From NCBI GenBank assembly GCA_001798855.1, contig MGQQ01000138.1, forward strand, positions 1 through 42,898: a DNA stretch of 42,898 nucleotides, in the 5' to 3' direction. The DNA comes from Deltaproteobacteria bacterium RBG_16_49_23 (lineage in GTDB: Bacteria > Desulfobacterota > BSN033 > UBA1163). The notes beneath the pieces were generated by a model. It was not told the origin of the DNA and ran no database searches. It saw nothing but the letters and a program-made list of their open reading frames with translations. This document shows, one piece after another, positions 16,639 to 42,898 of this stretch. Within the stretch, counting starts at the first letter, position 1; each line of letters opens with the position of its first letter. The position numbers and the translations under genes were made by a program.

Positions 16639-16660
16639 GGAAACAGGAGCTGAAATCCCA

Positions 16661-21578: not shown

Positions 21579-21580
21579 AA

Positions 21581-24265: not shown

Positions 24266-25513
24266 TTACTGCATCCCCAGAAATGCCCTGGCCAGGAATG
24301 CGGCCATCTGGTTGCGTAGAACATTATCTCCGGGACAGTACATCCCCGGTTGACATCCCTGGGTCACCCCGAGCTCGACCAGCCTCTTGATGTATTTGCA
24401 AAAGACGCTGGCTGGCTGCACGTCTGTAAAAGATATTCCGGTATCGCAATAATTTGGGAGAGGTTCTCCCTCCACCGCTCTTACGATAAACGCCGCCATC
24501 TGCTGACGCAGGACGTTATCCGTAGGGCAGTACTTTCCCGCTTCACATCCAGCAGTGATCCCGAGCTCAACCAGCCTCTTGATGTATTTGCAAAAGGGGC
24601 TGGCTGGCTGCACGTCCGTAAAGGATATTCCGGCGTCGCAATAATTCGCCGGCGGCTCTCCCTCCTTTGCCCTCACGATGAAGGCCGCCATCTGCTCGCG
24701 GGTGACATTGTTTCCGGGGCAATACGTGCCAGCCCCGCATCCCCCCGTGATCCCGTCGTCATAGATCCCCATGACATATTGATAAAACGGGTTGACTCCC
24801 GGTCCTGACTTGATAGGGACATCGTTGAAAACGGCTGCAACATTCAAGTCAGCAAGCACTTTCGTGTCAATATCTTCGGGGCCAAAAACTTCCACATCTT
24901 GAACAATCCCGATATACGGAGCAAACCACCGGGTCCGATCCATGACCTGTCCCCCTAATTGAGGCACGGATATCTGGCGGTGAACTTCATAAGCCTGAAA
25001 GGTGCCAAGTGGCACGGTGACACGTCCAAACCCAACGACAGTGACTGTGGAAGTAATATCAATTGGACCGGTAAAAGTTGGATCATTAAATGTTCCCGTG
25101 GTATTTTCGATTAGCGGAACACCAAAGGCAATCTGTTTCCCCCCCACGAAGAGTCCTCCATTAAACGTCACCGTCATTTGATCCTGTAAATATTCTCCCC
25201 GATGCCACCTGAAATCAAATGGACTTAACGGATTAACGGAATACCAGTCCATATCCTGCAAGGTGATGCCCCCGCTAAAGCCGTCAAGACGGTAGGTTGT
25301 AAGTCCGGGCACTGTTACTGGATCAATGGCAGCAACATTTGTGCGCGAGGTCCATGTACATGGACCCGGGATGCACCCTATAGGGTTGCTCCCGTTATAG
25401 TCCCAAAAATTCCCCACATCCATTGCCCAGAACTTGTTAGGTTGTGCGATAGCGCCACTAACAAACACCAGACACACTGCAGAAACAGCAACAAACAAAA
25501 TCATCTTCCTCAT
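24266..25513 (-). CDS. Secreted protein with three Cys-containing SLH-like repeats (family A)
   Basis: This 415-residue protein has a signal peptide (MRKMILFVAVSAVCLVFVSGAIA). Residues ~25-230 form a domain shared with the products at 28313 and 41714: early K-F-W-A-M, later LGTFQAYEVH and RWFAPYIGIVQ. Residues ~235-415 hold three SLH-like repeats with D-G-I-T-x-[19 protein letters not shown], and extra Cys before F-T-D-V and K-Y. It ends [20 protein letters not shown] domains anchor proteins to cell-wall polymers; the Cys pairs suggest disulfides and export as a folded protein. It converges with gspD. Function of the N-terminal domain is unknown. Confidence 0.85.
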   Translation of the reverse strand: MRKMILFVAVSAVCLVFVSGAIAQPNKFWAMDVGNFWDYNGSNPIGCIPGPCTWTSRTNVAAIDPVTVPGLTTYRLDGFSGGITLQDMDWYSVNPLSPFDFRWHRGEYLQDQMTVTFNGGLFVGGKQIAFGVPLIENTTGTFNDPTFTGPIDITSTVTVVGFGRVTVPLGTFQAYEVHRQISVPQLGGQVMDRTRWFAPYIGIVQDVEVFGPEDIDTKVLADLNVAAVFNDVPIKSGPGVNPFYQYVMGIYDDGITGGCGAGTYCPGNNVTREQMAAFIVRAKEGEPPANYCDAGISFTDVQPASPFCKYIKRLVELGITAGCEAGKYCPTDNVLRQQMAAFIVRAVEGEPLPNYCDTGISFTDVQPASVFCKYIKRLVELGVTQGCQPGMYCPGDNVLRNQMAAFLARAFLGMQ

Positions 25514-25542
25514 GAGACTTTCTCCTTTCGATAAGATTAGGC

Positions 25543-25735
25543 TACTTACACCAGAAAGTCTGAGAATTTATCTCTAACTTTCTCTTAAATGTCCCCCAAA
25601 AATCTCCCCTCCCCCGGCGGGAGGGGATGAAGGGGAGGGGGGACCCAATGGTCTCTATTTTGTCCACCCCCACCCTCACCCTCCCCCGTCGAAGGGGGAG
25701 GGGATTATTCGGAAATTTCAAATGTTTTTGATAAG
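25543..25735 (+). repeat. 193-bp dispersed repeat, copy B
   Basis: It matches copy A along its length, starting TACTTACACCAGAAAGTCTG; its right end diverges to AATGTTTTTGATAAG. It lies just upstream of the 24266-25513 gene, starting 30 bp before its ATG, and so occupies that gene's promoter region. GATAAG occurs on both flanks (25530 and 25730). Confidence 0.85.
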
Positions 25736-25789
25736 TATTTTAGTCAATATTTTAAATACTGACATTTACACTGACACAGACACTAATTT

Positions 25790-27754
25790 TTACGGCATTC
25801 CTAAAAACGCTCTTGCCAAAAAAGCGGCCATCTGGTCGCGAAGAACGCTATCGGATGGGCAGTACATTCCTGCGGCACATCCCTGGGTGATCCCGCGATT
25901 TACAAGCCTCTCGATATTTCTACAGAAGGGATTGGTTGCGAGCACATCGGAAAACGGAGATGGACCGATGCAAGAGCCTTCAAAGTTCTGTCCACCCTCT
26001 ACGGCCCTCACGATAAAAGCAGCCATCTGCTCGCGGCTCACGGTGTGCCCAGGGCAGTATGTGTTCGGCCCGCAACCTGTTGTGATCCCAAGCGCTCTGA
26101 GCCTCTCGATATTTGCACAGTGGGGATTGCTCAGCGGCACGTCGATAAAGACAGCCCCTGTGCAGCTTGCAGCATCGGTTCCATCCACGGCCCTCACAAG
26201 AAAGGATGCCATCTGCTCGCGGGTAACATTAGTCAAAGGACAGTAGAGACTCTCATCACATCCCTGGGTAATACCTGCGTTGAAAATAGCATCAATATAG
26301 GTTTCAGCCCAATAACCTATTGGGACATCGATAAATAAACCGCCGGGAAAGGACACGTTAAAACTCATCGTCGCCCCCGGGGTCGAAATGTTATCCACAA
26401 GCAGTCCGGTGAGTCCGCCGTCGTATCGGTTGCTGTTCGGTGAAGTGTTCGGGCCGAAGGTCTTTCCAGCCACGAAGTAATCTCCTGCATCGCCGATTCC
26501 ATTTCCGAATTCGATCTCTTCCAATCCATCCGCTTCCATCAAGCGAAGCAGCTTATGCTCGGTATCTGAGTTGTCGTATAGAAAATTCGTCCCCCCTGCA
26601 TTAAGACGGGCATCCACATGCCAGATCAAAAGGCCGTCGCCCGGGAAAGGCGTGTCATTTCCGACACGATTACGGTTCTGTATCATAAAGAACTCGCCAA
26701 ACGGATTTCCCTGGACAGCGCCAGGCATGACCACGATGGCATCCTGCGATGTCCCCGAGCTATTCAACATTACTGCGTGAGTCCCTAAACCATAAGCCTG
26801 AGGGCTAATCCAGTCCAGAAGAAATTTGCTAAAACAGTTGTGGTCTCCTTTGTTACCATCCATCATATCCAGATCGCCCACTCCTCCGTCTGGACCAACG
26901 GCATCGTCGTAGTCATAATAATCCGGCAAGCCCAGGGCATGACCAGTTTCATGAATGACAACTTTGGGGTCAAAGGCGCCGGAAGGGTAGTTGTACGATT
27001 CCCATTGCCAGGAATAATCCCCCAGCCTTTTTCCATCGAGCCGGAAAGTGCTGTCTCCAAACCATGTTTTGTATCCCCACCAAAAACTGGACCAGGCGCC
27101 ATGTGAGCCCGTCCAGATGACGATCAAATAGTCGATGATTCCGTCGCTGTCATTGTCATACTGAGCAAAGTCATGGCCCAGAGCTTCATAATAGTTGAGC
27201 GCTTCCTTGATCAGATTCTGGCGTCCCTGAGTAGTCTCAACAACGTTGCTGCGGGGGTACGGGGTTGTGTACCATCCAAGCGCATTGCCCTGGATTTCAA
27301 GTTGATTATAGGATGACCGGCGATAAAAATTCCGGAGGCTCTCGTAAGGGGGAGACCCCTCACCGTCAACGAACAGTTTTGAATTGACCGATGCCTGCGT
27401 GTCACTTACAATTTGAGGTGTGTCCTGAAATGCAATAAGCAGGGCAAGCACTTTCACCGGTCCTGAAGTGGGCATCCCTTGCCATGCAGGCGGGGGAGCG
27501 AGAGCCTGACCGATTTCTTGAGAGCTCATTCCTTGCATTTGCAAGGATATGCGTTTCAGTTTGTATTGGGCACGGGCTACAGCGCTTTGAGACGGGAGGT
27601 GATTGCCCAGACCTTTTGCCTCAGCAATGCGGGAGCCAAGAGACCCATCCCTTTTATACTCTTCCAATTGCTCTTTTGTTGGAGGTTCAAGAGCCAGACT
27701 CAGGTTGCAGAAAACCAGAAGCAATAAAATAATTGTGATAAGAATTTGTTTCAT
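25790..27754 (-). CDS. M6-family metalloprotease with three SLH-like repeats
   Basis: This 654-residue protein has a signal peptide (MKQILITIILLLLVFCNLSLA), a short pro-region, then a peptidase domain related to immune inhibitor A (M6). The zinc site is HETGHALGLPD, with His268, Glu269, His272 and the distal Asp278. YDNDSDGIIDYLIVIWTG, WQWESYN and IQNRNRVGNDTPFPGDGLLI are typical M6 stretches. Residues ~475-654 carry three Cys-containing SLH-like repeats and end [17 protein letters not shown]. It is probably a surface-held secreted protease that degrades proteins outside the cell. A T2SS route is likely, since M6 and other large folded exoenzymes commonly use it, but this is inference. Confidence 0.9.
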   Translation of the reverse strand: MKQILITIILLLLVFCNLSLALEPPTKEQLEEYKRDGSLGSRIAEAKGLGNHLPSQSAVARAQYKLKRISLQMQGMSSQEIGQALAPPPAWQGMPTSGPVKVLALLIAFQDTPQIVSDTQASVNSKLFVDGEGSPPYESLRNFYRRSSYNQLEIQGNALGWYTTPYPRSNVVETTQGRQNLIKEALNYYEALGHDFAQYDNDSDGIIDYLIVIWTGSHGAWSSFWWGYKTWFGDSTFRLDGKRLGDYSWQWESYNYPSGAFDPKVVIHETGHALGLPDYYDYDDAVGPDGGVGDLDMMDGNKGDHNCFSKFLLDWISPQAYGLGTHAVMLNSSGTSQDAIVVMPGAVQGNPFGEFFMIQNRNRVGNDTPFPGDGLLIWHVDARLNAGGTNFLYDNSDTEHKLLRLMEADGLEEIEFGNGIGDAGDYFVAGKTFGPNTSPNSNRYDGGLTGLLVDNISTPGATMSFNVSFPGGLFIDVPIGYWAETYIDAIFNAGITQGCDESLYCPLTNVTREQMASFLVRAVDGTDAASCTGAVFIDVPLSNPHCANIERLRALGITTGCGPNTYCPGHTVSREQMAAFIVRAVEGGQNFEGSCIGPSPFSDVLATNPFCRNIERLVNRGITQGCAAGMYCPSDSVLRDQMAAFLARAFLGMP

Positions 27755-27779
27755 CTTTTCATCCTTTTTTCAGGTTTAT

Positions 27780-27842
27780 TCATCATAACACCCCTCTATT
27801 CCCCCCTTAACTTAAGGGGGGAATAGAGGGGTGTTATGATGA
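27780..27842. repeat. Perfect 63-bp palindrome
   Basis: Arms of 31 bp (27780-27810 and 27812-27842) are exact inverted copies around a single central C. The arms contain CCCCTCTATTCCCCCCTTAA. Related shorter forms are at 28085-28120 and 41552-41572. It begins 26 bp upstream of the M6 protease start, so it could extrude as a cruciform or block transcription from upstream. Confidence 0.9.
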
Positions 27843-27990
27843 TCGAAAAACATTGAAGAGTAAGCATATTATGTGCCACGGAACTTGTCCGTCTAACTGC
27901 ATGACATTAAATCACTTTTAAAATTCTCTCATTGTCTGTAGTAATAAAAATTGACTAATTATGACCAGATTCAGCCAAATTTTGGCACAC

Positions 27991-28029
27991 AAAAAAGCCT
28001 GGTCTCAAATGCCTTCAAGACCAGGCCTT
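27991..28029 (-). terminator. Rho-independent terminator after the 28313-29566 gene
   Basis: On the minus strand GCCTGGTCT pairs with AGACCAGGC and runs into TTTTTTGTG. It is about 280 bp past the stop of the SLH-tailed gene at 28313, with no other gene in between, and would end that transcript before the M6 protease gene. Confidence 0.8.
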
Positions 28030-28084
28030 GAATAAATATTTTAAGGTTCTTCCGGCTTTTGTGTGGGTATCTCCCCCTCTTTAA

Positions 28085-28120
28085 CGCCCCTCTATTCCCC
28101 CCTTAGTTTAAGGGGGGATG
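28085..28120. repeat. Palindromic repeat, relative of the 63-bp palindrome
   Basis: CCCCTCTATTCCCCCCTTAG and TTTAAGGGGGGATGAAG form a hairpin of the same family as 27780-27842, with a diverged right arm. Confidence 0.65.
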
Positions 28121-28186
28121 AAGGGGGGTTAGGCACTTAGTGAATCGATATCGACAAAAGATTGTTGATGATTTGTTAAAATCAAA

Positions 28187-28280
28187 TGGTAGGCGAAGGC
28201 TTTAGCCTGCGTTATTTATCTGTAACGATTTTTCACCCAATGGGTGAGAGAAAACCGCAGGCTAAAGCCTCCGCCTACCA
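28187..28280. repeat. Inverted repeat with GGCTTTAGCCTGCG arms
   Basis: The 25-bp arms (28187-28211 and 28256-28280) match at 24 positions. An inner hairpin TTCACCCAATGGGTGAG lies between them. A half copy occurs at 10248-10294. It sits 32 bp downstream of the 28313 gene's stop. There is no gene in 27755-28312. Confidence 0.75.
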
Positions 28281-28312
28281 TAATTTCAAAAAGAATCGCT
28301 CAATTTTCCAAA

Positions 28313-29566
28313 TCACGGCATTCCCAAAAACGCTCTGCCGAGGAAGGCGGCCATCTGGTCGCGTAGCACATTATTGCCGGGACAATACATCCCCGCTGCA
28401 CATCCTTGGGTGATCCCGAGGCCTACAAGCCTCTCAATATTGGCGCAGTGAGGAGCGCCTAATGGCACATCGGTAAAAAATCCTATGCAGGGCCCCGGAG
28501 CATCGGCTTTATCCATGGCCCTCACGAGAAAGGATGCCATTTCCGTCCGGGTGACATTGTTGTCGGGACAATAGTTTCCACTTCCACACCCTTGGGTAAC
28601 ATTGAGCTCCTTGAGCCTCTCGATATTGGCGCAGTGTGGAGCGCCCGGTGATACATCATTAAAAACATTTCCTAAGCAGTTTGTCGCATCGGCTCCATCG
28701 ATTGCTCTGACAAGAAAAGAAGCCATTTCGGCCCGGGTGACGAGGTTAGAGGGACAGTATGCCATAGCCCCGCATCCCGTTGTGATTCCATCATCAAAGA
28801 TTCCTGCGGTGTAATGATAAGCCCAGAAGTTGAGGGGAATGTCCGAAAAAACAATTGGGAGGATTAATGAGGTAAGCAATCTCCCGTCCCCATTGAAGGG
28901 ATTACGTGACATATTATCCCATTTAATTTTCCCAAGATAAGGAACCCACCATTTCCGTCCTGTCATACCCCAGCGAAAATTATTAACGGAATCCCAACCT
29001 GTTAAATGATGCTCAAAATGATAAGTGTTGTAGGTCCCAAAGGGTGTTATTGTGGTGGTTTCCAAACCCCGAACAAAGGCAGTTCCAGTAAGGGTGAGTG
29101 TAATGCTTTCTACATCGTTTCCTTGAGGGACAGTGCCTTTATTCAGAGTTCCCAGGGCTGAAATTGGCCAGGAGTCCCCTCCGAAGATCGGGTTTTTTGT
29201 CCACAGAACCCCCGGGTTGTCTAAGATGAGTGTGTACCAAAGCTGGTCAAAGTTATTGTATTTAGTGTGTTGAAGGAATCTCATTTCTGATGGACTTATT
29301 GAAATCCAGGTTCTTTCTAAAAGAACCCAAGTAAATCCATCCCACCTTCTACCTTCTATCACATAAGTCATTACTCCTTGAACCCAATCTATTCCAACAA
29401 TGTCTTCGCGCCACTGATAAGGGGAACCATTGCTATTTCCATCGAAGATCCGATAATGCCCCAGTTCCATTGCCCAGATTTTTTGTGGTGTCTGCGCATG
29501 GGCATTTCCCACAAGCGTAAATAGCCCGATGATAAGAAACTGAGCAATGACAAGTTTAATTTTCAT
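28313..29566 (-). CDS. Secreted protein with three Cys-containing SLH-like repeats (family A)
   Basis: The product is 417 residues from ATG 29566, which follows GAGGGGGGATT; a longer frame to 29692 would put 42 unrelated residues before the signal peptide. The signal is MKIKLVIAQFLIIGLFTLVG, ending AHA. Residues ~25-230 match the 24266 and 41714 proteins: TPQKIWAMELG, FGTYNTYHFEHHL, WWVPYLGKIKWDN. Three SLH-like repeats follow, with GITTGCGAMAYCP, NVTQGCGSGNYCP and GITQGCAAGMYCP cores, ending [17 protein letters not shown]. It lies on the minus strand with its own terminator at 27991-28029. Confidence 0.87.
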   Translation of the reverse strand: MKIKLVIAQFLIIGLFTLVGNAHAQTPQKIWAMELGHYRIFDGNSNGSPYQWREDIVGIDWVQGVMTYVIEGRRWDGFTWVLLERTWISISPSEMRFLQHTKYNNFDQLWYTLILDNPGVLWTKNPIFGGDSWPISALGTLNKGTVPQGNDVESITLTLTGTAFVRGLETTTITPFGTYNTYHFEHHLTGWDSVNNFRWGMTGRKWWVPYLGKIKWDNMSRNPFNGDGRLLTSLILPIVFSDIPLNFWAYHYTAGIFDDGITTGCGAMAYCPSNLVTRAEMASFLVRAIDGADATNCLGNVFNDVSPGAPHCANIERLKELNVTQGCGSGNYCPDNNVTRTEMASFLVRAMDKADAPGPCIGFFTDVPLGAPHCANIERLVGLGITQGCAAGMYCPGNNVLRDQMAAFLGRAFLGMP

Positions 29567-29583
29567 GTAATCCCCCCTCTGAA

Positions 29584-29646
29584 TTACTGCATCCCCAAAA
29601 ACGCCCGTGCCAGGAACTCGGCCATCTAGTCCCTTAATACAATGTT
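29584..29646 (-). pseudogene. Remnant of an SLH-tail C-terminus
   Basis: The minus strand reads NIVLRD, then TAG where all relatives have Gln, then [13 protein letters not shown] and TAA. The match to the common C-terminus of the SLH-tailed proteins is clear, and the expected Y-C-P-G block upstream is gone. The gene is therefore a dead tail, with one nonsense change and loss of everything before it. It lies 18 bp upstream of the start of the 28313 gene. Confidence 0.85.
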
Positions 29647-29741
29647 CGATGAAGATCCTCTCAAAGCACTGAAGGCAGGCCCGGTTGATCATTCGATACG
29701 AATGATCAAGGGATTCGTAGGTTTTGTCAAGAATTTTTTTG

Positions 29742-29807
29742 GAGAGGTTTCTGGAAAAAACCAGAAATCTCTGATTACTTCGATTAGGGACCGATTACAG
29801 GGATTAG
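29742..29807. repeat. Dispersed hairpin repeat, copy 2 (AGAAATCTCTGATTAC family)
   Basis: AGAGGTTTCTGG pairs with CCAGAAATCTCT, followed by GATTACTTCGATTAGG and ACCGATTACA. It resembles 21581-21646 over its whole length. It lies next to copy C of the 194-bp repeat. Confidence 0.65.
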
Positions 29808-29882
29808 AAATTCTGAAAGCGAAAGGGAGTTGTAACGTAAATACAAGAAAAATTCATGGTAGAATTGCTTCGTATATAAATC

Positions 29883-30076: not shown

Positions 30077-30080
30077 TCTA

Positions 30081-31514: not shown

Positions 31515-31557
31515 GAAAAAGCCTGATCATCCAACATTAGGATGAATCAGGCTTTTT
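31515..31557. terminator. Bidirectional rho-independent terminator
   Basis: AAAAAGCCTGAT-CATCC pairs with GGATGAATCAGGCTTTTT around a short loop. A and T tracts flank both arms, so it can stop transcription from either side. It lies between the amidohydrolase and the DUF5618-like gene, about 180 bp past the latter's stop. Confidence 0.85.
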
Positions 31558-32311: not shown

Positions 32312-32312
32312 A

Positions 32313-35300
32313 TTACTGCATCCCTAAAAAAGCCCTGGCCAAAAAAGCGGCCATCTGGTCGCGTAGAACATTATTGGATGGACAATACATTCCTGTTGCG
32401 CATCCCGCGGTGGTCCCAAGATTTACAAGCTGCTCGATGTTCCTGCAGAAGGGGCTGCTTTGAAGCACATCGTTAAACGGAGATAGACCGGCACAGACTC
32501 CTTCATAGAACTGGCCACCCTCCACTGCCCTCACAATGAAGGCTGCCATCTGCTCCCGGGTCACGTTGTTCCCGGGGCAGTACATGCCGGTTGTGCATCC
32601 AGCGGTGATCCCAAGAGCCATAAGTCTTTCGATGTTGGCGCAATGAGGATTGACGTTAGTCACATCGTCAAATACAGTTCCTAAGCAGATCGAAGCATTA
32701 GTTCCATCCACAACCCTCACAAGAAACGATGCCATCTGATCGCGAGTGACGGGATTAGAAGGACAGTATTGTAATGGATTCAATGAGCAACCCAGAGTGA
32801 CTCCAACGCCGTAAATTGACTGGATGTATGCACGTGCAAAGTTATCGTTTGGGACATCCCCAAAGCTAACCGGGGGCTGAAAGCTCACCGTAAAAATTCT
32901 TGTAGCAGGAGAAAGATCCTCGTTTCCTGCGCTATCCTTTGCCTTCACATGAAAGGTATAAGACCCGTCAGGCAGGTTGCTGTAGGATATGGCGGTAGAA
33001 GGACCAAAGGCCGACCATCCGGAGTCAAACCCTTCGAGGTATGTGGCATAGAGAAGATTGGATGCCGGAGTCGCATTATCCGAACCCTTAAAGATAAATG
33101 TGGCATTACGGGTCGTGATATTTCCGCCTGGACCACTGATGATCAACGTCTCGGGAGGAGTCAGGTCAGGGCAGGCTGAGGTTGACTGGTTTCCAAGCAG
33201 CGTCCAACCCGTCTCTGCATTCTCTGCATTTTTGGCCTTCACCCTGAAGCTGTAAGGGCTGCCGCACACCAGGCTACAGCTATCCCAGGAGGCCCCTGTG
33301 GTCCAGCCGGAATTCGTCCCTGCTGTGGTGTTCTCGCAGAAATACTGGGTTCCGGAGGGGTTTGCATTATCAGCCCAGTTCGCACGGACACAGGTTTCAG
33401 TTATATTAGAAAATGCGGCTGCTCCGGGAGGATTGGCCAGGGTAAACCTGGAAGCAACAGGAGAGTAACCCGTCTCGATGCCATCTCCGTTTCTTGCCTT
33501 GGCCCTGAAACTGTAGCTCGCATTCGGTAAGAGAGAATTACTGGTCCAGAAATTATTGTCCTGCTTCCAGCCGGAGTTGGTGACATTGGTGGTATTCTCG
33601 ATCAATAACCCTGAGCTTCCACGGTTGAGCCCCGAGGGAGTATTGGTGGATTGAATCTGAATGCTTGTTGAGGTTATTGCGCCGAACGTCACCCCAGTCG
33701 GGGCCTCAATAGCGGTATAGAGATATCTTGTCGGGGAGGAGTAAGCTGTCTCATTATTGCCCCCATCTCTTGCCTTCACCCGATAGCCATATTGATGGTT
33801 GGGTTGGAGTCCGGCATTCGTATAAGATGTTTCAGCCTGCCAGGCTGAGTCAGCTCCTCCACTGCCTCCGGTAGGACTATCCACAAAATCGAAGTAGTAA
33901 TCGATAGGAGCCGTTGGATCACTTGCTGTGCTTGCCGTCATTGTGATGGAGGTTGTTCCCGTTGCTGCAGGAGCAGTGACCCAGGTCATCGGATTCGGCG
34001 TCGGCGGAGTCAAATCAGGCAGAGAGTAGGTGACCGTAAGAGTGTCGATTCCAACATTTCCGTCTGGCTCCCGATCCCGGGCAGTGACTGTGATGATGTT
34101 TTCACCGACAAAGAGTGATATGCCAGTTGCGCTCCATGAAGAAGTTCCAGTGCACGTCCCGCTTCCTCCCCGGTCATTAGACCATGTGACTTTGGTAATT
34201 CCCACATTATCTGTTGCCGTTCCGCTGATGCTGATCGCCGGTTGAGTGGTTGAATAGGTCGGGTTGCTTGTGGGTGAGGTAATGGTGACTGTCGGAGAAG
34301 TCGTATCCACAATGGCTGTGAATTCATCCGCTCCAATATCCACAGTGGCATTAATGATTCGGGGGTCTCCTTCAAAGTCGGTCGTGAGTGTCACTGGAAT
34401 GACCGCATTGCTTCCTGCATTGATACAGGGTGAACCCGGTTGGAGGTGAAAATCCCCTCCCGCTCGGTTCACAAAGAGCGGGTCGAGATGAATGTCGGTT
34501 GCTCCTGCTGATAAGTTTATGTAGTAGGAGTGGCTGCCCGTGTCAAATATATCGTTTTTTCCTAAGGTTGGAACAAGCATAGGAGTCATCGGATATTGCC
34601 AGATACCCGAAGAGTTAAAAGCAATGACGTTATTGGCGACGATTGCTCTCCCAGGGGGAGGGATCGGAGGAGGAGGCAAGGGGGCCGGAAGCGCTAAGGC
34701 GATTCCCCCTCCCCATTCGGAGAACATGGCAGTCGCGGTATTGCCCACAATTGTATTATTCACTATGTACAGGTCATCGTTTGGTGATGCATGGGTCTGG
34801 GCATAGATGCCTCCGCCCATGCCTGCACCAAGAGGGCTTTTCGCTTCATTATTGATAATCAGATTGTTCAGGATGCGTCCTGCCAAGTTACTCTGCACGC
34901 AGATCCCCGCCCCGGCATTAGCAATGTTTCCCTGGATGAGATTCCCCCGGATCAGGAAATTTTGACTCCCTCTAAGAGAGATGGCGCCCTCTGTGGCCCC
35001 ATTGTAAAGGGGAGTAAGAACATACATGAAATTATTTTCAATGATATTCCCAAGTATCCAGGGATCCGAATACTCTCCATAGATCGCCCCCCCATAGACA
35101 GCACGGTTCTGGGTTATGGTGTTTCCTTCGATCACCGGTGCGGAATGGATAAAATAGATCCCCCCGCCGCTGCCGGAGAAAGTATTGATGATCTCATTCT
35201 CCGTTATGGTATTCTTGCGAATGAAGGCAGCGCTCAGATAGGTGTAAATCCCTCCTCCATATCCGGGTTTATTGGCATTATCGAAAGGGTTACCCAACGA

Positions 35301-37190
35301 GTTATGTCTAATCGTGTTATTCTCGATGTAGGGTGTGCTCACCTGGCAATAGACGCCTCCTCCAAGACCGCCGTATCCATCATTTCCACCGGGTATTTGT
35401 CCCCCGGTGTACCTGCCGCCATTCTGAATCGTGAAGCCGTCCACCGTGCTGACCAGGTATCCTGCCCTCTCGATCATGACAACGGTGGGGATTCCTACGC
35501 CATCCAGGATAGTTGGATTAGCAGCGATGTTCCGGTTGAGGCGACTGGTTTCAGTCCCGGCAAATCCTCCATAAAGGTAAACGAATGCCCGTAATACAAC
35601 GTGCTCCTGGTAAGTACCTGCGGCAACCCACACTTCCCCTCCTGTTAAGGATGCTGTCAGGATGCCTGCGGCAACGGTTCTTTTGGCTGTCGCCCAACTC
35701 AACCCATCATTGTCATTATTTCCTCCTGTTTTCACATATATGACCGGCGTAGAAGAATTCCATGAAGTGCCATCCGACTCATCCGCCCCGATATCGACTC
35801 CGCTCCCGATAATCCGATTTTGACCGTCCATATCGGTCCATCCGGGTGCGACCGCCCCTGTGGTTCCGGCATCAATGCAGGGAGAGCCAGGCTGCAGGTG
35901 AAAGTTCCCGATTTTGTAATTGGCCAACAGGGGATCGGCTGAAATATTTCCGTTCAAACCGGTTTGATCAGCAATCCCCTGGTAATCGGATATTTGTCCT
36001 CTCAGCGTATTCCCATAAACGCAGTTGTTGCCAATGGTGGCTGTGGAAGGATTCGTATCCCCCAGCTCCAATCCCCAGGTGTTGTAAACGATCAAGTTAT
36101 TGCGTATCACCGGAGAGGTTGTATGCCAGACGATTCCGGAGCCATTATTTGCCACAACCGTATTATTTGTAATGACAGGAATGCCGCCATGCTCCGGATC
36201 CGTATCGAATAGCATGATCCCTCCGCCGACCCCGCCTCCATTTGCAGCGATGGTGTTGTTGACGATGATCGGGGTCGTAACGGCAAATTCAATCGTGCTG
36301 TTATCCAGATCTCTCGTGGTGGCGAAGATTCCCCCCCCTTTTCCCAGAAAATTCGTTTCGGCATAGGCGGCCATATTGGCAATGATTTTATTATTGGCAA
36401 TGAACGGGGTGACATGGCCATGGATGCTGACTCCTCCGCCATTCAGCGCCGACACGTTACGAAAGATTGTATTTTCTGTAATCGTCGGCATCACCGGCCC
36501 ATATTGTGGAGGCGTGATATGCTCGGAGCCGATGATTGCGATCCCTCCTCCGCTCTCGCTGGCGAAATTCTCAGTGATCACATTTTGGGTTATGATAGGG
36601 TGCTCTTTGGGCGCCGTAATTTTATAGTTGATTATAAGAATGCCTCCGCCGGCATTGGCCCGATTCTCACTGATAGTGTTATTGATGATGGTAGGGGCCG
36701 ACCCCAGAATGGCGATTCCTCCGCCAGCCATGTCATGTCCCCGGATGATAACAAATCCATCGATGCGAGTTGCCTGTGTCGCTCCTCCACGAATATAAAT
36801 AACAGTGCCGATTTCAGGCGGCATGGGAAAGGGGCCGCCTCCGCCGTCCAGAATGGTTATATTGACGTTCCAGTCGCGTTGGTCACGAGCCGTTTCAGTG
36901 CCGGCGAAGCCGCCGTACAATGCCATGTCTACAGCCAATTCGCTCCCCGGGCTGCCGACGGTTTTATTCTTGATGTGCTCGGGATAAGTTCCGGCAACTA
37001 CCCAGATTTCGTCCCCCTGATTCCCCGCATTGATTGCGGCCTGAACGGTTTTCTTGGCTAAGTCCCAGTTTGCACCGGAGTTGGCGTCGTTGCCACCAGG
37101 TTTGACGCGGATGATGGCTGAATAGGCGGCTGTTTGTAAAAGGATGACAAGGATGAATGACGTTAAACTAATTTTGAAAAGGTGTTTCAT
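32313..37190 (-). CDS. Giant secreted beta-helix/Fn3 protein with three SLH-like repeats
   Basis: The 1625-residue product uses ATG 37190, preceded by GGGGGGATC and followed by signal peptide [19 protein letters not shown]. Two right-handed beta-helix units (choice-of-anchor Q/pectate-lyase-like) start at [20 protein letters not shown] and [20 protein letters not shown], with many N-N-x-I and G-G-G-I turns; each ends in D-I-G-A-D-E. An Ig-like segment ([16 protein letters not shown]), Fn3-like repeats and a Y-Y-Y-like domain ([20 protein letters not shown]) follow. Three Cys-containing SLH-like repeats close the protein, ending [17 protein letters not shown]. Likely an adhesin or polysaccharide-binding surface protein; no catalytic site is evident. 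Confidence 0.9.
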
Positions 37191-37282
37191 TGTGATCCCC
37201 CCATCTCGCAAAGAGTGTTCAGCATTCATGCCCCACCAGAATTACAAATTTAAGGTTTATTGGGTTCATTGAGCTTGTTGAG

Positions 37283-37312
37283 TTATTGGGTTTAACCCAA
37301 GTAACCCAATAA
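37283..37312. terminator. Hairpin between the 37404 and 32313 genes
   Basis: TTATTGGGTT pairs with AACCCAATAA around a 10-nt loop. It lacks a clear T tract on the minus strand, so termination strength is uncertain. It is the only hairpin between the two minus-strand genes besides the ACACCC repeat. Confidence 0.45.
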
Positions 37313-37371
37313 GCCCAAATAACACAAGTAACCAAGAAACCTGAAATAAAAAATTTGAAATGGATTTATTT

Positions 37372-37403
37372 TACACCCTACACCCTGCACCCAGCACCCT
37401 GTA
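37372..37403. repeat. ACACCC-rich repeat after the 37404 gene
   Basis: ACACCCTACACCCTGCACCC, then AGCACCCTGTA, ends exactly at the stop codon. The last 30 bases are nearly identical to those next to the 32313 gene. Confidence 0.65.
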
Positions 37404-39581
37404 TTACTGCATCCCCAAAAAAGCCCTGGCCAGAAATGCGGCCATCTGGTCGCGGAGGACGTTATTAGCAGGGCAGTACATACCTGCTGAACATCCCAGA
37501 GTAACATTAAGAGTCCTGAGCCTTTCGATATTGGCACAATGAGGAGCTCCCAGCGGCACATCGTTAAATACATCTCCTGCACAAACCGTAGCATCGGCCC
37601 CATCCACTGCCCTCACAAGAAAGGATGCCATCTCCTGCCGGGTCACATTGCCCAGAGGACAATATAAATTTGGTCCGCAACCCAGTGTAACGTTAAGAGT
37701 CCTGAGTCTCTCGATATTGGCGCAGTGAGGGTTGTCTGCAGTCACATCGTCAAATACAGTCCCTAAGCAGGTCGTCGCATTGGCCTTATCCTTTGCTCTC
37801 ACAATGAAGGCGGCCATCTGTTCACGGGTGACATTATTGCCGGGACAATACATGCCAGCAGCGCATCCCGCAGTAATTCCATCATTATAGATTGCCATAA
37901 CATAATCGTTTGCCCAGTGTTGAGACAACACATCCAAAAATGTGGGCTTGTGGAGTCTGAAGAAATTCAGCAGATCCGACCAGATCTGAGGGCTATAGTT
38001 GTGACCAACACCAGGGTAAATGACAAATTGGGCGTTAGCGGCCACGGAGTCATACATCTGCTCAGCAATCGGCCAACGCTGAGAGATATTTGGGAGGGGA
38101 GAACAATTCAGCATCGCACAAATCAGATCCCGGTCCTCCTGCGGCATATCTCTGGTGTCGAGCGCATCGTTTGTGTCCAGGTTTCCGACATAGATATACT
38201 TGGGAACTGTCAGGAATGTGTTAAGGTCAAAGGGGACACCCACAAGTTGCTCGACGTCAGCTACCCCGACGGGATACCTGAGGGGAATTCCATTCCATAC
38301 GCCTACCGGAGCTATCGGCCAGCCGCCGGGCGACCCCTGCGCCACCGCTCTGACTATCCCAGGATGAAGGGCAGTGAACCTGCTTACGAAAGCCCCTGAC
38401 GCTGAGAACCCCGTTAAAAAGACTTTCTCTTCGGTCTGGTAACCCATTGCGGCAAGCTTTTCCCTCGCGTCATTGATCATGGCGATCAGTTGGAGATCTA
38501 TGCGCTTGAGGTTGTCAGGAAGATACGAAAGATAGAGGCTGTACCTGTCGAGGGCGTGGGTGTAAATGCCTCCCGGCTCAGGAGCCTGCGGTGTTATCGG
38601 TCTCGGAAATGTTGGGACTAACAGGGGAGCATCCAGGTCAATCGCAAAACTCGATCGCTGCAACACCAGATCGTGGGCTTTCCCGTCGTGGAAGTTAGGG
38701 TCGTCGCTCCATGTCCCGCTGTTGTTCGGTTCGACAAGAAGAACCGATCCCTGACTGAGTGAATTCGGGACGCTGAGATAATACGGCCAGTGAAACCCTT
38801 TCGCAGGATTTGCTTCGATCCTTTGCAATTGAGCGCCCATTTCGGTTGTGAACGATAATGTAAAAGTCGGTAAAGCGTGACCATCCATGGACTCATAAGG
38901 AGGATATCCCGGGGGGCTGAGCGTGATGCTGACTGTCACACCAGCTCCGAGCCTCTGCGGATCCGTTCTGACAAAAGTGACAGTCATCCGGTCTGTTGAC
39001 CATACAATATCGCTTGATCCCCAGTTCGTGGCGGAAGTCGTGCCGCCGCGCATGGGCTTATTGAATACTATCGATACCGATGGGAGGTCGCGAGAAACGT
39101 TGATTGCCCCATTCGGAGGGCTCGTCGAGACAACGTAAGGAGCCTGTGAATCCAGCAGAATCGTGAACGACAACGTATAGGTCGGCAGGGGAATCCCCTG
39201 TAAATCCTGGAAGCTTGTAGATCCCTGGTAATTCAGGATGAGTGTCACTTGGGTTCCGGGTGCAAGGTCTCCCAGACCGGGTCTTGTCAGGTTAATAATC
39301 GTATTGCCCGCCGACCAGAAAACCGACATGGGTGACCAACTACCAGTCATGTCTGTAATGCTGTAGCCTCCACTCATTGGCTCGCTGAAGGTGATCGAGA
39401 TCACGGTCTGATTCCCGGGGACATTGGTTGCGCCGTTTGCAGGGCTTGTTGACACTACTGTAGGACCCTGGGCCAATGCCTCCTGGATGGGAATACAGAA
39501 AAGCAGAGGGATGACAAAGATGAGAATAAACGGAGTTGCCCCTGTAAGCCACGCAATCTTTTTCGTAGGTTTTGTCAACAT
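37404..39581 (-). CDS. Ig-like/alpha-beta-hydrolase protein with three SLH-like repeats
   Basis: This 725-residue protein has a signal peptide (hydrophobic LTGATPFILIFVIPLLFC, ending ALAQG). Two SbsA-type Ig-like domains follow (TVVSTSPANGATNVPGNQ; YVVSTSPPNGAINVSRDL). Residues ~255-540 form an alpha/beta-hydrolase like PHB depolymerases and feruloyl esterases: FLTGFSASGAFVSRF with Ser393 as probable nucleophile and YPGVGHNYSPQ for the His near 526. Three Cys-containing SLH-like repeats complete it, ending [17 protein letters not shown]. Likely a surface-held esterase or depolymerase; the substrate is not readable. Confidence 0.85.
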   Translation of the reverse strand: MLTKPTKKIAWLTGATPFILIFVIPLLFCIPIQEALAQGPTVVSTSPANGATNVPGNQTVISITFSEPMSGGYSITDMTGSWSPMSVFWSAGNTIINLTRPGLGDLAPGTQVTLILNYQGSTSFQDLQGIPLPTYTLSFTILLDSQAPYVVSTSPPNGAINVSRDLPSVSIVFNKPMRGGTTSATNWGSSDIVWSTDRMTVTFVRTDPQRLGAGVTVSITLSPPGYPPYESMDGHALPTFTLSFTTEMGAQLQRIEANPAKGFHWPYYLSVPNSLSQGSVLLVEPNNSGTWSDDPNFHDGKAHDLVLQRSSFAIDLDAPLLVPTFPRPITPQAPEPGGIYTHALDRYSLYLSYLPDNLKRIDLQLIAMINDAREKLAAMGYQTEEKVFLTGFSASGAFVSRFTALHPGIVRAVAQGSPGGWPIAPVGVWNGIPLRYPVGVADVEQLVGVPFDLNTFLTVPKYIYVGNLDTNDALDTRDMPQEDRDLICAMLNCSPLPNISQRWPIAEQMYDSVAANAQFVIYPGVGHNYSPQIWSDLLNFFRLHKPTFLDVLSQHWANDYVMAIYNDGITAGCAAGMYCPGNNVTREQMAAFIVRAKDKANATTCLGTVFDDVTADNPHCANIERLRTLNVTLGCGPNLYCPLGNVTRQEMASFLVRAVDGADATVCAGDVFNDVPLGAPHCANIERLRTLNVTLGCSAGMYCPANNVLRDQMAAFLARAFLGMQ

Positions 39582-39708
39582 GATAAAATTATCTCCCTTT
39601 TTTTATTATGGTAACCCCATACGAGATATTGGAATACAGAAGCAGAACCTCACATAAACATAAACCTGCGAAAACCTTCGATTTCCTTAGTTTCATTTCA
39701 CATTCGCT

Positions 39709-39746
39709 TTGACATGAAACCAATTCTGTGATAATTTTGGTATAAT
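39709..39746 (+). promoter_or_regulatory. Promoter region of the toxin-antitoxin pair
   Basis: TTGACA (39709-39714) has TAATTT 17 bp downstream. A second, stronger-looking extended -10, TGGTATAAT, lies at 39738-39746. Either would place a start site 20-40 bp before the ATG at 39775, which has AAGGAG upstream. Confidence 0.5.
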
Positions 39747-39774
39747 AAATCTATTAAGTAAGGAGTGGCCTCGA

Positions 39775-39990
39775 ATGAACCGTGCACAGGTGAAAAGCGC
39801 TGTTGATATTCTCCACCAAATCGAGAATATCGAAAAAGAGATATTGGATTTAAAATTAACTCTCCTCAAAACTCTGCCCCCCGCCGGAAAGAAAGCGCTC
39901 TCTTTCAAAGGAATTCTCAAAGGAGTAGAAATTACCGAAAAAGATATAAGGTCCGCAAAAAAATCTCTTTATAGCAAAATGGGGGTTTAG
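39775..39990 (+). CDS. Probable VapB-type antitoxin
   Basis: This 71-residue protein starts MNRAQVKSAVDILHQIENIE. It is helical and charged, with a basic C-terminus (SAKKSLYSKMGV), and no clear Arc/MetJ or AbrB signature. It is called an antitoxin from position: directly upstream of a PIN-domain gene, 7 bp gap, same promoter. Antitoxins of PIN toxins are often small, poorly conserved proteins that bind and neutralise the toxin and repress the operon. Confidence 0.65.
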   Translation: MNRAQVKSAVDILHQIENIEKEILDLKLTLLKTLPPAGKKALSFKGILKGVEITEKDIRSAKKSLYSKMGV

Positions 39991-39997
39991 CGAAACC

Positions 39998-40387
39998 ATG
40001 AATTTTGTCACCGACACCCACGCACTCCTGTGGTGGTTTATTGATAGCCCCAAGATAAGCCCAAAAACTGCCGAGATTTTTGAAAAATGTGAATCGGGTG
40101 ATAATATTATTTTTATTCCGTCCATTGTCCTGGCTGAGGCTCTCAGCATTTTCGAGAAGAAGCGAATCTCTTTTGATTTTAAGAAGCTATTTAACCAGAT
40201 TACTGACAGCCGAACCTTTATGATCGTTCCACTCGACTACCCAATCCTCCATATCATGTTAGATCTAAGAGATGTCCCTGAGCTCCACGACAAAATAATT
40301 GTCTCAACGGCAAAGTATCTTGATGCTCCCCTCATTACCAAAGACAAAACCATTCAAGCTCTTTCTCTTATCAGGACTGTCTGGTAG
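39998..40387 (+). CDS. PIN-domain toxin (VapC-like ribonuclease)
   Basis: A 129-residue PIN domain. Acidic residues of the magnesium site are in place: Asp6 in VTDTHALLWW, Glu47 in VLAEAL, Asp98 in PELHDKIIV and Asp116 in ITKDKTI. The VTDTHALLWW start is typical of the VapC subgroup. VapC toxins cut tRNA or rRNA when the antitoxin is lost. It is cotranscribed with the small gene upstream. The plus-strand pair interrupts a row of minus-strand secreted-protein genes, suggesting separate acquisition. Confidence 0.85.
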   Translation: MNFVTDTHALLWWFIDSPKISPKTAEIFEKCESGDNIIFIPSIVLAEALSIFEKKRISFDFKKLFNQITDSRTFMIVPLDYPILHIMLDLRDVPELHDKIIVSTAKYLDAPLITKDKTIQALSLIRTVW

Positions 40388-40432
40388 CGATTACTGGGAA
40401 ATCCTAAAAACCTTCTTGAAAAATCTTTTTTG

Positions 40433-41440
40433 CTATTGAGGGACGTCTTTGCATTGGCCGGCGTGCAAAACGGAGACGCCGACCGCATAGGCTTCGCAGT
40501 GGTTGCAATACGTCTGGTTGTCGCAACCACAGACCAGAGGAAGGCAGGCAAACGTTAAAGGACATACAGGTCTGGGCGCACAAATACCCTGGCCGGCACA
40601 CTGACCGTCCGGCTTCAGGCAGAACCAATTTGGGCTGCAATCTTCATTTATGGTGCATCTTTTGATATCTTCACATCGCCCGGGGTGGAGCACGGAAACG
40701 CCGGCCGCAGCCGCTTCACATTCATTCCCATAGGTCTTTCCGTCGCACCCGCAAACGGGATCGTAGTATAGGGGGCAGGCCTCGGGTTTTAGTCTGCACA
40801 CACCCTCTCCTTCGCAATCCCCTGGTTGTTTAGCACAGTACTCTTTTTCGGCGCACGCTGTGTTGCTGGTGCATAGCTTTGGTTGAACCATCGGCTGATG
40901 CTCAAAGGCGACGGAGATATGAATCCCCCTTAACCTGGACGCCGTGTAAGGAATCAGGTCCGTTATCTTCACGATGTGATAGGGGTTTGTAATCACGGTC
41001 AGGGGGCCCGGGGTTTTATTGTCCATCACTAATGCTCTCATCCCTCTCGGAAAGATCAGGTTAGCGGAGAGGGATAGATTCACGGGATCGATATCACGGA
41101 TCTCCTCAATGGATATTATTTCAATAGCGGGGCCGCCTCCTGAAGTCTGAAATCCGAGAAGAGTTACGAGAATGAATTCTTTCCAGAAGTTTACAACAGG
41201 CAGAGGCAGGGCAGGGGAGAGGCCCTGGGTATGCTTTTCCCAGAACCATTTCCATGTCATTGGGTCCCTGATGACCATATCAGCTCCAAGGAAGTTGGAA
41301 TCGTTATACCTGAAATATGAGATCTCCCCTTTGGCTATCGTTTCAAAAGGGATGGAGCGAGGATGCGCGACCCCCTGGAGGAATAATGGAGAAACAAAGA
41401 GAATAAAAACCACAACCCATACTTTTTTCAGATTAGACAT
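40433..41440 (-). CDS. Secreted PrcB-like protein with Kazal-type domains
   Basis: The 335-residue protein has a signal peptide (KVWVVVFILFVSPLFLQGVA). Residues ~45-125 resemble the PrcB C-terminal domain (VIRDPMTWKWFWEKH; FILVTLLGFQTSGGGPAIEI). The C-terminal 150 residues are Cys-rich: CAEKEYC and GVCRLKPEACP, a Kazal-type unit (DPVCGCDGKTYGNECEAAAA), then NWFC-GICAPRPVCP and a second, diverged Kazal unit (LVCGCDNQTYCNHCEAYAVG). Kazal domains inhibit serine proteases. It may protect the cell surface from proteases, its own or those of competitors. It has no SLH tail although it is surrounded by SLH-tailed genes. Confidence 0.82.
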   Translation of the reverse strand: MSNLKKVWVVVFILFVSPLFLQGVAHPRSIPFETIAKGEISYFRYNDSNFLGADMVIRDPMTWKWFWEKHTQGLSPALPLPVVNFWKEFILVTLLGFQTSGGGPAIEIISIEEIRDIDPVNLSLSANLIFPRGMRALVMDNKTPGPLTVITNPYHIVKITDLIPYTASRLRGIHISVAFEHQPMVQPKLCTSNTACAEKEYCAKQPGDCEGEGVCRLKPEACPLYYDPVCGCDGKTYGNECEAAAAGVSVLHPGRCEDIKRCTINEDCSPNWFCLKPDGQCAGQGICAPRPVCPLTFACLPLVCGCDNQTYCNHCEAYAVGVSVLHAGQCKDVPQ

Positions 41441-41529
41441 CTGAATCCCCCCTTCTTAAACATTGTTTAATCCATTGTGATGGAGTGTCAACCTGAAACC
41501 ATTCACCCTCCCCTCTATCACGGCTTAAG

Positions 41530-41660
41530 TTAAAACTTAACCCCCCTTTATCCCCCCTTAAACTAAGGGGGGAATAGAGAAAGGAATCCCTCCCCTTATA
41601 ACTCCCCCTTCCCCCTCTTAAGGTAAGAGGGGGAAGATGGACGGCCTCTGGCTCGTATGA
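41530..41660. repeat. G/C-rich palindromic repeats
   Basis: CCCCCCTTAAACTAAGGGGGG (41552-41572) is in the same family as the 63-bp palindrome at 27780-27842. A second hairpin, CCCCCTCTTA with TAAGAGGGGG, lies at about 41609-41633. No gene is present in 41441-41713. Confidence 0.65.
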
Positions 41661-41713
41661 GCCTACGGCTCGGAGAGGGGCGTTAGATTGGGAGGAAGGA
41701 GGGGTTATGAATC

Positions 41714-42898
41714 TCATGGTATTCCTAAAAACGTTCTTGCGAGGAATGCGGCCATCTGGTCGCGAAGGACATTATTTTCAGGGCAGTACTTTCCTGCCTC
41801 ACATCCCGCCGTGATCCCACGATTTATAAGCCTCTCGATATTTTTGCAGAAGGGACTGCTTTGAGGCACATCGGAAAAAGGAGATGCGCCGTCACAGGGT
41901 CCTTCAAAGAACTGACCACCCTCCACCGCTCTCACAATGAAGGCAGCCATTTGCTCGCGGGTGACATTGTCGAAAGGGCAATATATCCCCGCTGCACATC
42001 CTGCGGTAATCCCAAGATCTACAAGCCTCTCGATATTCCTGCAAAAGTTACTGCTTTGAGGCACATCCAAGAAAGGCGATGGACCAATACAGGGTCCTTC
42101 ATAGGCTGGGCCTTTTTCATGTGCTCTCACAAGAAAGGCGGCCATCTGCTCACGGGTCACATTGTTCCCGGGACAATAAAAGGGATTCCCACATCCCGCA
42201 GTGATTCCGTTGTCGTAGATTCCAAATATGTAATGATAGGCCCAGTTGTTGGAGGGGACATCCGGAAAAAGGAAGGGAAGGGTCAGCGAAGAGAGCAATT
42301 CTGTCGACTGCGCATTTGCCCATTTAACATTTCCTAAATAAGGGGCCATCCACTCCAGATCTGTCATAGTCTCGATATTATTACTTTGATCCCTAATCTC
42401 TATGAAGTGTTGAATTTTATAAGCCTTGTAGGTTCCCAAGAGAGCTGTGATGGTTTCGGCAGCAAGGACAGAGACGTTCCCAGTCACGGTGACTGGAATA
42501 CTTCCTCGATCGTCACCGAGAGGGGTGGTACCAGTGTTTACTATGCCCGTGGCTGAAATTGGCCAGAAGTCTCCCACGATTATTGGGTTTCTGTTCCATA
42601 GAATACCCGGAGGGTCTAAAATGATTGAGTACCATACCTGGCGAAAATCATGGTATTCTGCGTTCGCCATTACTCTCATTTCAAATGGATTAGTTATTGA
42701 AAACCAGGATCTGTTATCGGGTTGCCATGTTGGTGTAAAATCGTTCCGCCAGCTACCCACCTGAACATAAGTATCGACTAAATTAATTATATCTGTCCCT
42801 ACAATCTCTCCACGCCACTGGAATGCGCCAGTCTGACTCGTTCCATCAAGGATATGTACATTTCCAACGCTTATTGCCCAGAATTTCTCAGGTGTCAG
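41714..42898 (-). CDS. Secreted protein with three Cys-containing SLH-like repeats (family A), 5' end outside window
   Basis: The frame is open from the stop at 41714 to the window edge, 394 codons, although the first in-window ATG is at 42760. Translation upstream of that Met (LTPEKFWAISVGNVHILDG; FQWRGEIVGTDI) aligns with residues just after the signal peptide of the 28313 protein, so the ATG is internal and the true start lies outside. LGTYKAYKIQHFI and LEWMAPYLGNVKWAN are the family marks. Three SLH-like repeats with GITAGC and Y-C-P cores end [17 protein letters not shown]. Confidence 0.88.
   Translation of the reverse strand: MTPEKFWAISVGNVHILDGTSQTGAFQWRGEIVGTDIINLVDTYVQVGSWRNDFTPTWQPDNRSWFSITNPFEMRVMANAEYHDFRQVWYSIILDPPGILWNRNPIIVGDFWPISATGIVNTGTTPLGDDRGSIPVTVTGNVSVLAAETITALLGTYKAYKIQHFIEIRDQSNNIETMTDLEWMAPYLGNVKWANAQSTELLSSLTLPFLFPDVPSNNWAYHYIFGIYDNGITAGCGNPFYCPGNNVTREQMAAFLVRAHEKGPAYEGPCIGPSPFLDVPQSSNFCRNIERLVDLGITAGCAAGIYCPFDNVTREQMAAFIVRAVEGGQFFEGPCDGASPFSDVPQSSPFCKNIERLINRGITAGCEAGKYCPENNVLRDQMAAFLARTFLGIP

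Follow-up and report, generated by a model that had tools for sequence, protein, structure and literature searches.

The closest described relatives of the proteins considered here are the S-layer homology (SLH) trimers of Bacillus anthracis Sap and Paenibacillus alvei SpaA, which lie near the N-terminus of an S-layer protein; the SLH binding groove has been described as a single site formed by Gly29 of SLH1, Trp13 of SLH2 and Arg43 of SLH3 (PMC6081394). In diderm bacteria, the outer-membrane tethers OmpM and SlpA combine N-terminal SLH with a beta-barrel and bind wall or polymer (PMC10628300), and the Wzm/Wzt O-antigen exporters of Aquifex aeolicus and Escherichia coli O9a place a permease of the ABC-2 type (ABC, ATP-binding cassette) beside an ATPase whose extra C-terminal domain is a jelly roll, with a possible cap-forming enzyme next door (PMC9445017). 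Here we consider a window of 42,898 nucleotides, the entire contig C138 of the genome of Deltaproteobacteria bacterium RBG_16_49_23 (171 contigs, 3.83 Mb; completeness 93%, contamination 3.2%), in which six genes convergent to a type II secretion system (T2SS) operon encode proteins ending in an SLH tail. The tail is a known SLH anchor with unusual features: it is C-terminal, its cysteines are paired, and it has expanded in a genome that also has a T2SS. An exporter with SLH repeats, encoded elsewhere in the same genome, is a strong new lead. On balance we favour the reading that the tail forms a C-terminal SLH trimer by which secreted enzymes and adhesin-like proteins are held non-covalently on a pyruvylated surface glycan.

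The original prediction placed six open reading frames (ORFs) in the window, at 24266, 25790, 28313, 32313, 37404 and 41714, and had each product end in three SLH repeats. Both statements proved accurate: all six ORFs are present, alignment shows three repeats per tail, and PF00395 (SLH) exceeds its gathering score (20.8 bits) in 6/6 proteins by Pfam. A joint profile of the six tails recovers them at E values of 1e-96 to 1e-101 (it was built from the same six) and also matches further tails in the RBG_16_49_23 genome and in other phyla, so that a chance origin of the likeness is excluded. In the AlphaFold model of the 25790 tail (predicted local distance difference test, pLDDT, 96.2; predicted TM score, pTM, 0.91), for which we aligned 58 tails, the six of the window and 52 of the 104 suitable tails from named loci (throughout, the best 80 of 211 loci found), the predicted fold is that of a Sap/SpaA-type SLH trimer. 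All 15 Foldseek matches of this model in the PDB at E <= 0.001 are SLH domains of Sap or SpaA (TM about 0.65-0.8), among them 3pyw (E 1.8e-9), and several of them hold pyruvyl-ManNAc. The likeness to Sap and SpaA extends to the three tandem repeats and to the conserved Gly29 and TR motif, whereas the tails differ in forming the C-terminal end of many different proteins, in having a Cys pair in almost all repeats, with a second pair in RBG_16_49_23, in keeping Trp13 mostly in repeat 1 only, and in belonging to a genome with a T2SS. The earlier view that the module is described under no known name can be kept in part: by Pfam and Foldseek it is an SLH trimer, but its Cys-paired C-terminal form has only a weak NCBIfam match, far under cut-off.

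With a single-repeat model, exactly three repeats are followed by the stop in 106/110 scored proteins of the named loci and in 23/27 ORFs of RBG_16_49_23 itself (hereafter its own ORFs and tails), the four own exceptions being one protein with seven repeats, one truncated by the contig and the two copies of a single-repeat gene; the stop codon falls 3 to 12 residues beyond the end of the model. The cysteines of the G-C and Y-C-P motifs, noticed at the outset as additions to the repeats, are indeed invariant in 18/18 window repeats, and they occur both or neither in 94/95 own and 366/367 named repeats (gapped repeats, 2 own and 5 named, were set aside); own repeats without the pair show plain SLH form, e.g. 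GFPDGTFQP. A second pair consists of a Cys that precedes F-x-D and another in helix 1. Of 96 own repeats, 57 carry both, 37 neither and 2 only one; for 363 repeats of named tails the corresponding counts are 19, 316 and 28. Such pairing matches what disulfides would give.

The last repeat does have a consensus of its own, VLR(D/N)QMAAFL(A/G)R(A/T)FLG(M/I) followed by P or Q. Across 55 pairs drawn from 11 own tails, its 18-codon segment has 88% protein identity, against 80% and 77% for repeats 1 and 2, while four-fold sites diverge alike (223/392 differing, 0.57, in the last repeat; 205/346 and 200/339, 0.59 and 0.59, in the others), and because of this combination selection acting on the protein, rather than recent copying, seems to preserve the last repeat. 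For the fixed terminus, an origin by recent gene conversion is not favoured, the four-fold sites of the last repeat being as diverged as those of the others. The 11-mer CAGATGGCCGC occurs eight times on the minus strand between window positions 24310 and 42148, always within SLH tails, although the four-fold sites there are strongly diverged. Judged from the sequences, a fixed end is characteristic of these tails in general: it closes the third SLH domain, reads FNLP or similar in Chloroflexi and is commonly ...TFNLP or similar in other bacteria, and in RBG_16_49_23 it takes the form F/Y-L-G/A plus one or two residues in 23/26 distinct own tail proteins (the others being C107 46-1050 and two on contig C81). 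The PEP-CTERM and GlyGly-CTERM sorting tags consist of a short motif, a transmembrane helix and a basic end. The tails resemble these tags, and MYXO-CTERM, in giving a single C-terminus to many different secreted proteins, but unlike them they fold as a domain of three repeats, ~185 residues long, and have no transmembrane helix of their own; they also lack the basic cluster of PEP-CTERM and GlyGly-CTERM, and their last helix belongs to the predicted SLH fold. A short C-terminal sorting tag of this kind does not fit the length, the absence of a basic cluster and the place of the last helix.

The proposal that the tail is an anchoring module is supported by the predicted fold, the C-terminal place, Sec-like stretches and varied partner domains, which together would put these proteins at the surface. 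A Sec-like hydrophobic stretch lies near the N-terminus in 22/22 own tail ORFs with the start in hand (by a crude hydropathy test, one duplicate gene included), and NCBIfam choice-of-anchor domains, which accompany varied surface anchors, score above cut-off in 5/13 own tail proteins scanned. As to ligand residues, in 24 own tails Arg43 is kept in 72/72 repeats and Gly29 in 71/72 (the other one masked X). By the groove rule of PMC6081394, a full groove is present in 16/24 own and 88/106 named tails with W, Y or F allowed, and in 11/24 and 79/106 with W only.

A candidate source of the ligand lies on contig C81, which holds the only PF04230 (pyruvyltransferase) match of the genome. This match forms the N-terminal region of a 1301-aa protein that also has glycosyltransferase domains. 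Upstream of it, in the same orientation, are an SLH-tailed S8 protease (subtilase), Wzm, and a Wzt-type ABC ATPase with C-terminal SLH (L112:12794-13993), which adjoins Wzm and, at 373 bp, the pyruvyltransferase fusion; Pfam gives PF01061 for Wzm beside PF00005 and a C-terminal PF00395 (39.5 bits) for Wzt. The same order of Wzm, Wzt-SLH and pyruvyltransferase/glycosyltransferase fusion is found in Desulfoferrobacter suflitae, where the Wzt-SLH (L170:9930-11198), again adjoining Wzm and the fusion, is 51% identical to that of RBG_16_49_23. There the locus continues with glycosyltransferases and a WecB-type UDP-GlcNAc 2-epimerase, an enzyme of the kind that provides UDP-ManNAc for the SLH ligand in P. 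alvei (PMC11464976), and an SLH-tail gene stands at its far end, on the opposite strand and 5.6 kb from the pyruvyltransferase. Read by hand, Gly29 of SLH1, Trp13 of SLH2 and Arg43 of SLH3 (TRG motif) are kept in both Wzt-SLH proteins; the third repeat is degenerate, and the repeats, which would be cytosolic, lack the G-C/Y-C-P pair in both. The Wzt C-terminal family has no Pfam match on either Wzt, SLH being matched there instead. The arrangement of ABC-2 permease and ATPase with an extra C-terminal domain is thus that of the O-antigen exporters (PMC9445017), but the jelly roll of the latter is replaced here by SLH repeats, and the neighbour is a pyruvyltransferase-like fusion. No published description of a Wzt-SLH fusion was found in literature searches, which did not cover subscription papers.

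CsaB-like genes (TIGR03609 matches at E <= 1e-15) also follow the distribution of the tails. They occur in 24/30 tail genomes (own, 27 named, G138 and G323) against 20/335 other genomes of the phylum (Fisher p 3e-20; 24/28 against 20/337 gives 1e-21), the 24 comprising 23/27 named tail genomes and RBG_16_49_23; the figure is 12/16 for tail genomes outside the Chloroflexi and 2/13 for relatives (12 of the genus or family and G323). In stretches of 3.4 to 20 kb around the CsaB-like gene from 20 of the 24 genomes (all except G013, G014, G021 and G027), a tail gene lies nearby in 12/20, and Wzt and Wzm are both present in 8/20; G003, for which the ORF filter gave no pyruvyltransferase ORF, was scored as a miss. 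Two same-genus controls show neither a tail gene nor Wzt and Wzm in this position.

Starting from the tails with their predicted fold and paired cysteines, from the export and pyruvylation genes whose order is conserved in a second organism, and from the distribution, all read from sequence, we infer the ligand, the disulfides, a cap-reading role for Wzt, a T2SS route and the final location of the tail proteins. A CsaB-like enzyme would pyruvylate a glycan in the cytoplasm, and Wzm/Wzt would export the polymer, with the SLH repeats of Wzt, in place of the usual jelly-roll cap-binding domain, recognizing the pyruvyl cap. The tail proteins would exit via Sec and then cross the outer membrane, plausibly by the T2SS in this lineage; outside, disulfides would form and staple each repeat, and the trimer would dock on the same pyruvylated glycan. 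That the same SLH fold is used on the two sides of the envelope, as the cap reader of Wzt and as a disulfide-stapled surface receptor for the same glycan, is a serious but tentative suggestion. If it is true, glycan export and protein display would be matched by one recognition code, Wzt-SLH would add a new class to the cap-binding domains of ABC glycan exporters, and the pyruvylated SLH ligand would have an ABC export route. The SLH-bearing ABC exporter beside pyruvyltransferase and SLH-tail genes makes the proposal testable in cultured D. suflitae. In many uncultured Chloroflexi, Acidobacteria and proteobacteria, the tails also provide a simple way of flagging likely surface proteins from sequence, and they reveal in T2SS-bearing genomes an anchor best known from monoderms.

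Several observations weigh against anchoring to a pyruvylated glycan in the form proposed. The pyruvyltransferases of C81 and D. suflitae score 182.6 and 148.9 bits against TIGR03609 (CsaB), under its cut-off of 213.1. Full-length Wzt-SLH was found in only 2 genomes among those searched, with none at E <= 1e-78 in the 395 phylum genomes besides RBG_16_49_23 (four candidates per genome were scored, and misses are possible). No CsaB-like match was obtained in the tail genomes G138, G323, G008, G015, G016 and G022; the contrast of 30 with 335 genomes is confounded by taxonomy, 14/30 tail genomes being Chloroflexi; across the phylum, any SLH match and CsaB-like genes are unassociated (4 genomes with both; p 0.31); and the co-location counts stand without a random-window control, in genomes that can hold many tails. 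LysBT1, a studied protein with a C-terminal SLH domain, has no cysteine in a disulfide according to PMC12285257. In the tails themselves, 8/24 own tails, that of 24266 in the window included, have no full groove, and the sugar-stacking Trp13 is lost from repeats 2 and 3 in most own tails.

These losses would suit a tail that no longer has a pyruvyl-glycan ligand, serves as a cap that is structurally stable or self-associating, and spreads by duplication and horizontal transfer, as would the absence of tails from all six same-genus genomes (E <= 1e-15) while those of a metagenome-assembled genome (MAG) labelled Rhodocyclaceae are 55-62% identical; but the retention of Gly29 and Arg43 throughout the 24 own tails, and the co-occurrence and co-location of CsaB-like genes with tails, make such a cap very improbable. 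We also think it unlikely that the tails stay periplasmic and tie their proteins to peptidoglycan or a peptidoglycan-linked polymer as OmpM and SlpA do, the T2SS being irrelevant. OmpM, an outer-membrane protein, has SLH domains that bind the wall in the periplasm (PMC10628300), and its likeness to the tails lies in SLH in a diderm with wall or polymer binding; moreover, across bacteria the tails need no T2SS. However, proteins of the OmpM type carry N-terminal SLH and a barrel, whereas here C-terminal SLH is borne by secreted metalloprotease, beta-helix-like, kelch and cohesin proteins, which would suit the outside, and the pyruvyltransferase adjoins an ABC glycan exporter. By Pfam, no outer-membrane barrel family matches any of the six window proteins.

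Anchoring outside the cell raises the question of the route, and the original prediction held that the tail is used after T2SS export. For the tail overall this fails, since 14 tail-bearing Chloroflexi genomes (MAGs of unstated completeness) have no secretin match at E <= 0.001. A secretin match is present in 13 of the 27 named tail genomes, with GspD reaching its cut-off in 8; the remaining 14, which lack any match, are all labelled Chloroflexi or Anaerolineales. Within the phylum the GspD cut-off is reached in 254/395 genomes, in 3/3 with tails and 251/392 without (p 0.56; GspD of G138 and G323 was judged by E-value, 9.8e-134 and 2.3e-116). The T2SS as a general partner of the tail is rejected by this distribution, with tails in secretin-less Chloroflexi and GspD in about 251/392 tail-less phylum genomes. 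The expectation that this C-terminus occurs only with a T2SS likewise fails for the tail as a whole, but survives for the narrow terminus, defined as RAFLG or RAFLD with at most three further residues (minor variants accepted; FLA counted in own tails), which is found in six genomes (own, G001, G014, G026, G138 and G323), 6/6 with GspD over cut-off. It ends 23/26 own tails, 4/4 scored in G001 (one RAVLGM), 2/2 in G014, the one tail of G026 (RAFLDIP), and the tails of G138 (RAFLGIY) and G323 (RAFLGMQ), and it ends 0/87 tails of the 14 GspD-less Chloroflexi (one ends RSFL, a near miss) and 0/13 tails of four Acidobacteria-like genomes with secretins under cut-off (Fisher p 0.0006 for narrow terminus against GspD, kinship uncorrected). 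The GspD genomes G016, G017, G025 and G027 have one tail each with another terminus, and G015 has no scorable tail. Seen in six genomes, the association may instead reflect shared ancestry or transfer.

One could propose that the last helix (RAFLG plus P or Q) is a T2SS-linked sorting signal, by which proteins are selected, through the tail or its end, for export by the T2SS and retention at the surface. Besides the narrow termini, this is favoured by GspD over cut-off in 8/8 named tail genomes outside the Chloroflexi and the Acidobacteria-like group, and by an SLH gene near gspD in both RBG_16_49_23 and G138, the only members of the family found to have SLH tails. But the same tail occurs in Chloroflexi without a secretin match, GspD is common enough in the phylum that its presence is often expected, the own tail genes lie on 12 contigs, which makes one cluster beside the T2SS weak evidence, and the four GspD genomes just named have tails with another end; such a signal is, in our judgement, improbable. 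The only SLH gene found in G138 has the orientation of gspD and lies two genes downstream of it. The T2SS loci of relatives with ample flank (G034, G072 and G264) show no SLH gene, in genomes without any SLH match, and the T2SS contigs of G382, G306 and G219 end too close to show flanking SLH genes. In two relatives (L142:2070-5069 and L145:1-1194) the T2SS operon is followed, in G382 after one TPR-like gene, by a gene for a secreted protein of 118-120 aa and one for a larger protein with the same N-terminal domain; in G138 the larger protein has two SLH repeats and ends RAFLGIY.

The six tails of the window are part of a larger set. In the RBG_16_49_23 genome the six-tail profile finds 46 matches at E <= 0.01, and within the window and the genome stretches read we count 27 ORFs whose C-terminal end is SLH (stop codon in hand; a few lack the 5' end), of which 26 are distinct, so that the predicted six are right for the window and 20 more distinct ones lie on 11 other contigs; among these 20, C149 (where the contig starts) and C81 196-1092 show fewer than three repeats. 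A contaminating origin of the window is not favoured: its GspD is 55-67% identical to that of 7/12 genus and family relatives, the other five having no match at 1e-30. The other SLH contigs belong to the genome by binning alone; their tetranucleotide correlation to window 1-24131 is 0.92 for the C81 stretch and 0.69-0.94 for the rest. Six sister genomes of the genus have no tail (E <= 1e-15) and no SLH match, tails at E <= 1e-15 occur in 3/395 phylum genomes, and any SLH match in 42/338, where, besides RBG_16_49_23, 40 have one match and one has two. Because sisters lack the tail and it is rare in the phylum, RBG_16_49_23 is, on genome sequence, an outlier with a large SLH-tail expansion. The closest outside tails among the named loci (55-62% identical) sit in the Rhodocyclaceae-labelled MAG, whose composition is clearly different (tetranucleotide r to the window 0.11-0.21, against 0.84-0.95 for the loci of relatives), and horizontal transfer of tails is likely for this reason. 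Contig C134 encodes a 1047-aa protein (L115:5186-8329) with SLH repeats near both ends, Cohesin (PF00963, 82 bits) and choice-of-anchor D, a scaffoldin-like layout. A family of small secreted proteins that carry a single Cys-type SLH repeat at the N-terminus (start ...AQALCTG.VF.DVN) is encoded at L118:3911-5065 and on L119, L115 and L120, several of them near tail genes, and C81 carries tandem copies of a single-repeat SLH gene (L112:196-1092 and 1768-2664) whose last 150 residues are identical.

All six window genes lie on the minus strand. Three encode proteins with a common N-terminal domain, contrary to the earlier view that the N-terminal parts are unrelated, which fails for these three of the six: a secreted protein of 415 aa (24266..25513; three SLH stretches, E 7e-20), a secreted protein at 28313..29692 (SLH by Pfam) whose likely start Met is at 29566, ahead of the signal sequence, and a protein truncated at its N-terminus by the contig end (41714..42898, open 5' end; tail E 1e-100). 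The N-terminal parts of 28313 and 41714 are 45% identical over 196 aa, and 24266 matches both (E 4e-9 and 6e-9); a structure model of the common domain was too poor (pLDDT 43) and was not used. The others are an M6-family metalloprotease of 654 aa (25790..27754; TIGR03296 159.6 bits, cut-off 110.8), a 1638-aa protein (32313..37229) with choice-of-anchor Q, a weak NosD-type (beta-helix) match, Big_7, fn3 and Y_Y_Y by Pfam and NCBIfam, and a 725-aa protein (37404..39581) with two Big_5 stretches by Pfam and a part that is hydrolase-like by eye, without a Pfam match. By alignment and profile, the tails span 24266..24838 (ending LGMQ), 25790..26341 (LGMP), 28313..28861 (LGMP), 32313..32876 (LGMQ), 37404..37952 (LGMQ) and 41714..42277 (LGIP). 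Inside this cluster, which also encodes the M6 metalloprotease, lies a gene for a secreted-looking protein without an SLH tail (40433-41440), with a Kazal-type inhibitor match and a second copy seen by eye.

The T2SS operon, gspE to gspD by NCBIfam (12095..24131, plus strand), was correctly placed upstream of the cluster, as was the gap of 134 bp between gspD (stop at 24131) and the first, convergent SLH gene (from 24266). Matches above the curated cut-off identify gspE (12095-13807), gspG (15157-15585), gspM (20140-20760) and gspD (21729-24131), and gspF (13924-15138) falls slightly under it; weaker matches point to gspH-like (15582-16106), gspJ-like (16871-17608), gspK-like (17657-18688), gspL/PilM-like (18725-20143) and gspC-like (20757-21578) genes, and a gspI-like gene (15985-16638) is named by its place and a prepilin-type stretch only. 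Close to the operon, 10448-11419 encodes a rhomboid-like protein with a DnaJ C-terminal-like part, whose rhombosortase match is weak (25 bits, cut-off 84). The product of 1021-1683 has a C-terminus that looks like PEP-CTERM by eye, and a second surface-sorting system may exist in RBG_16_49_23.

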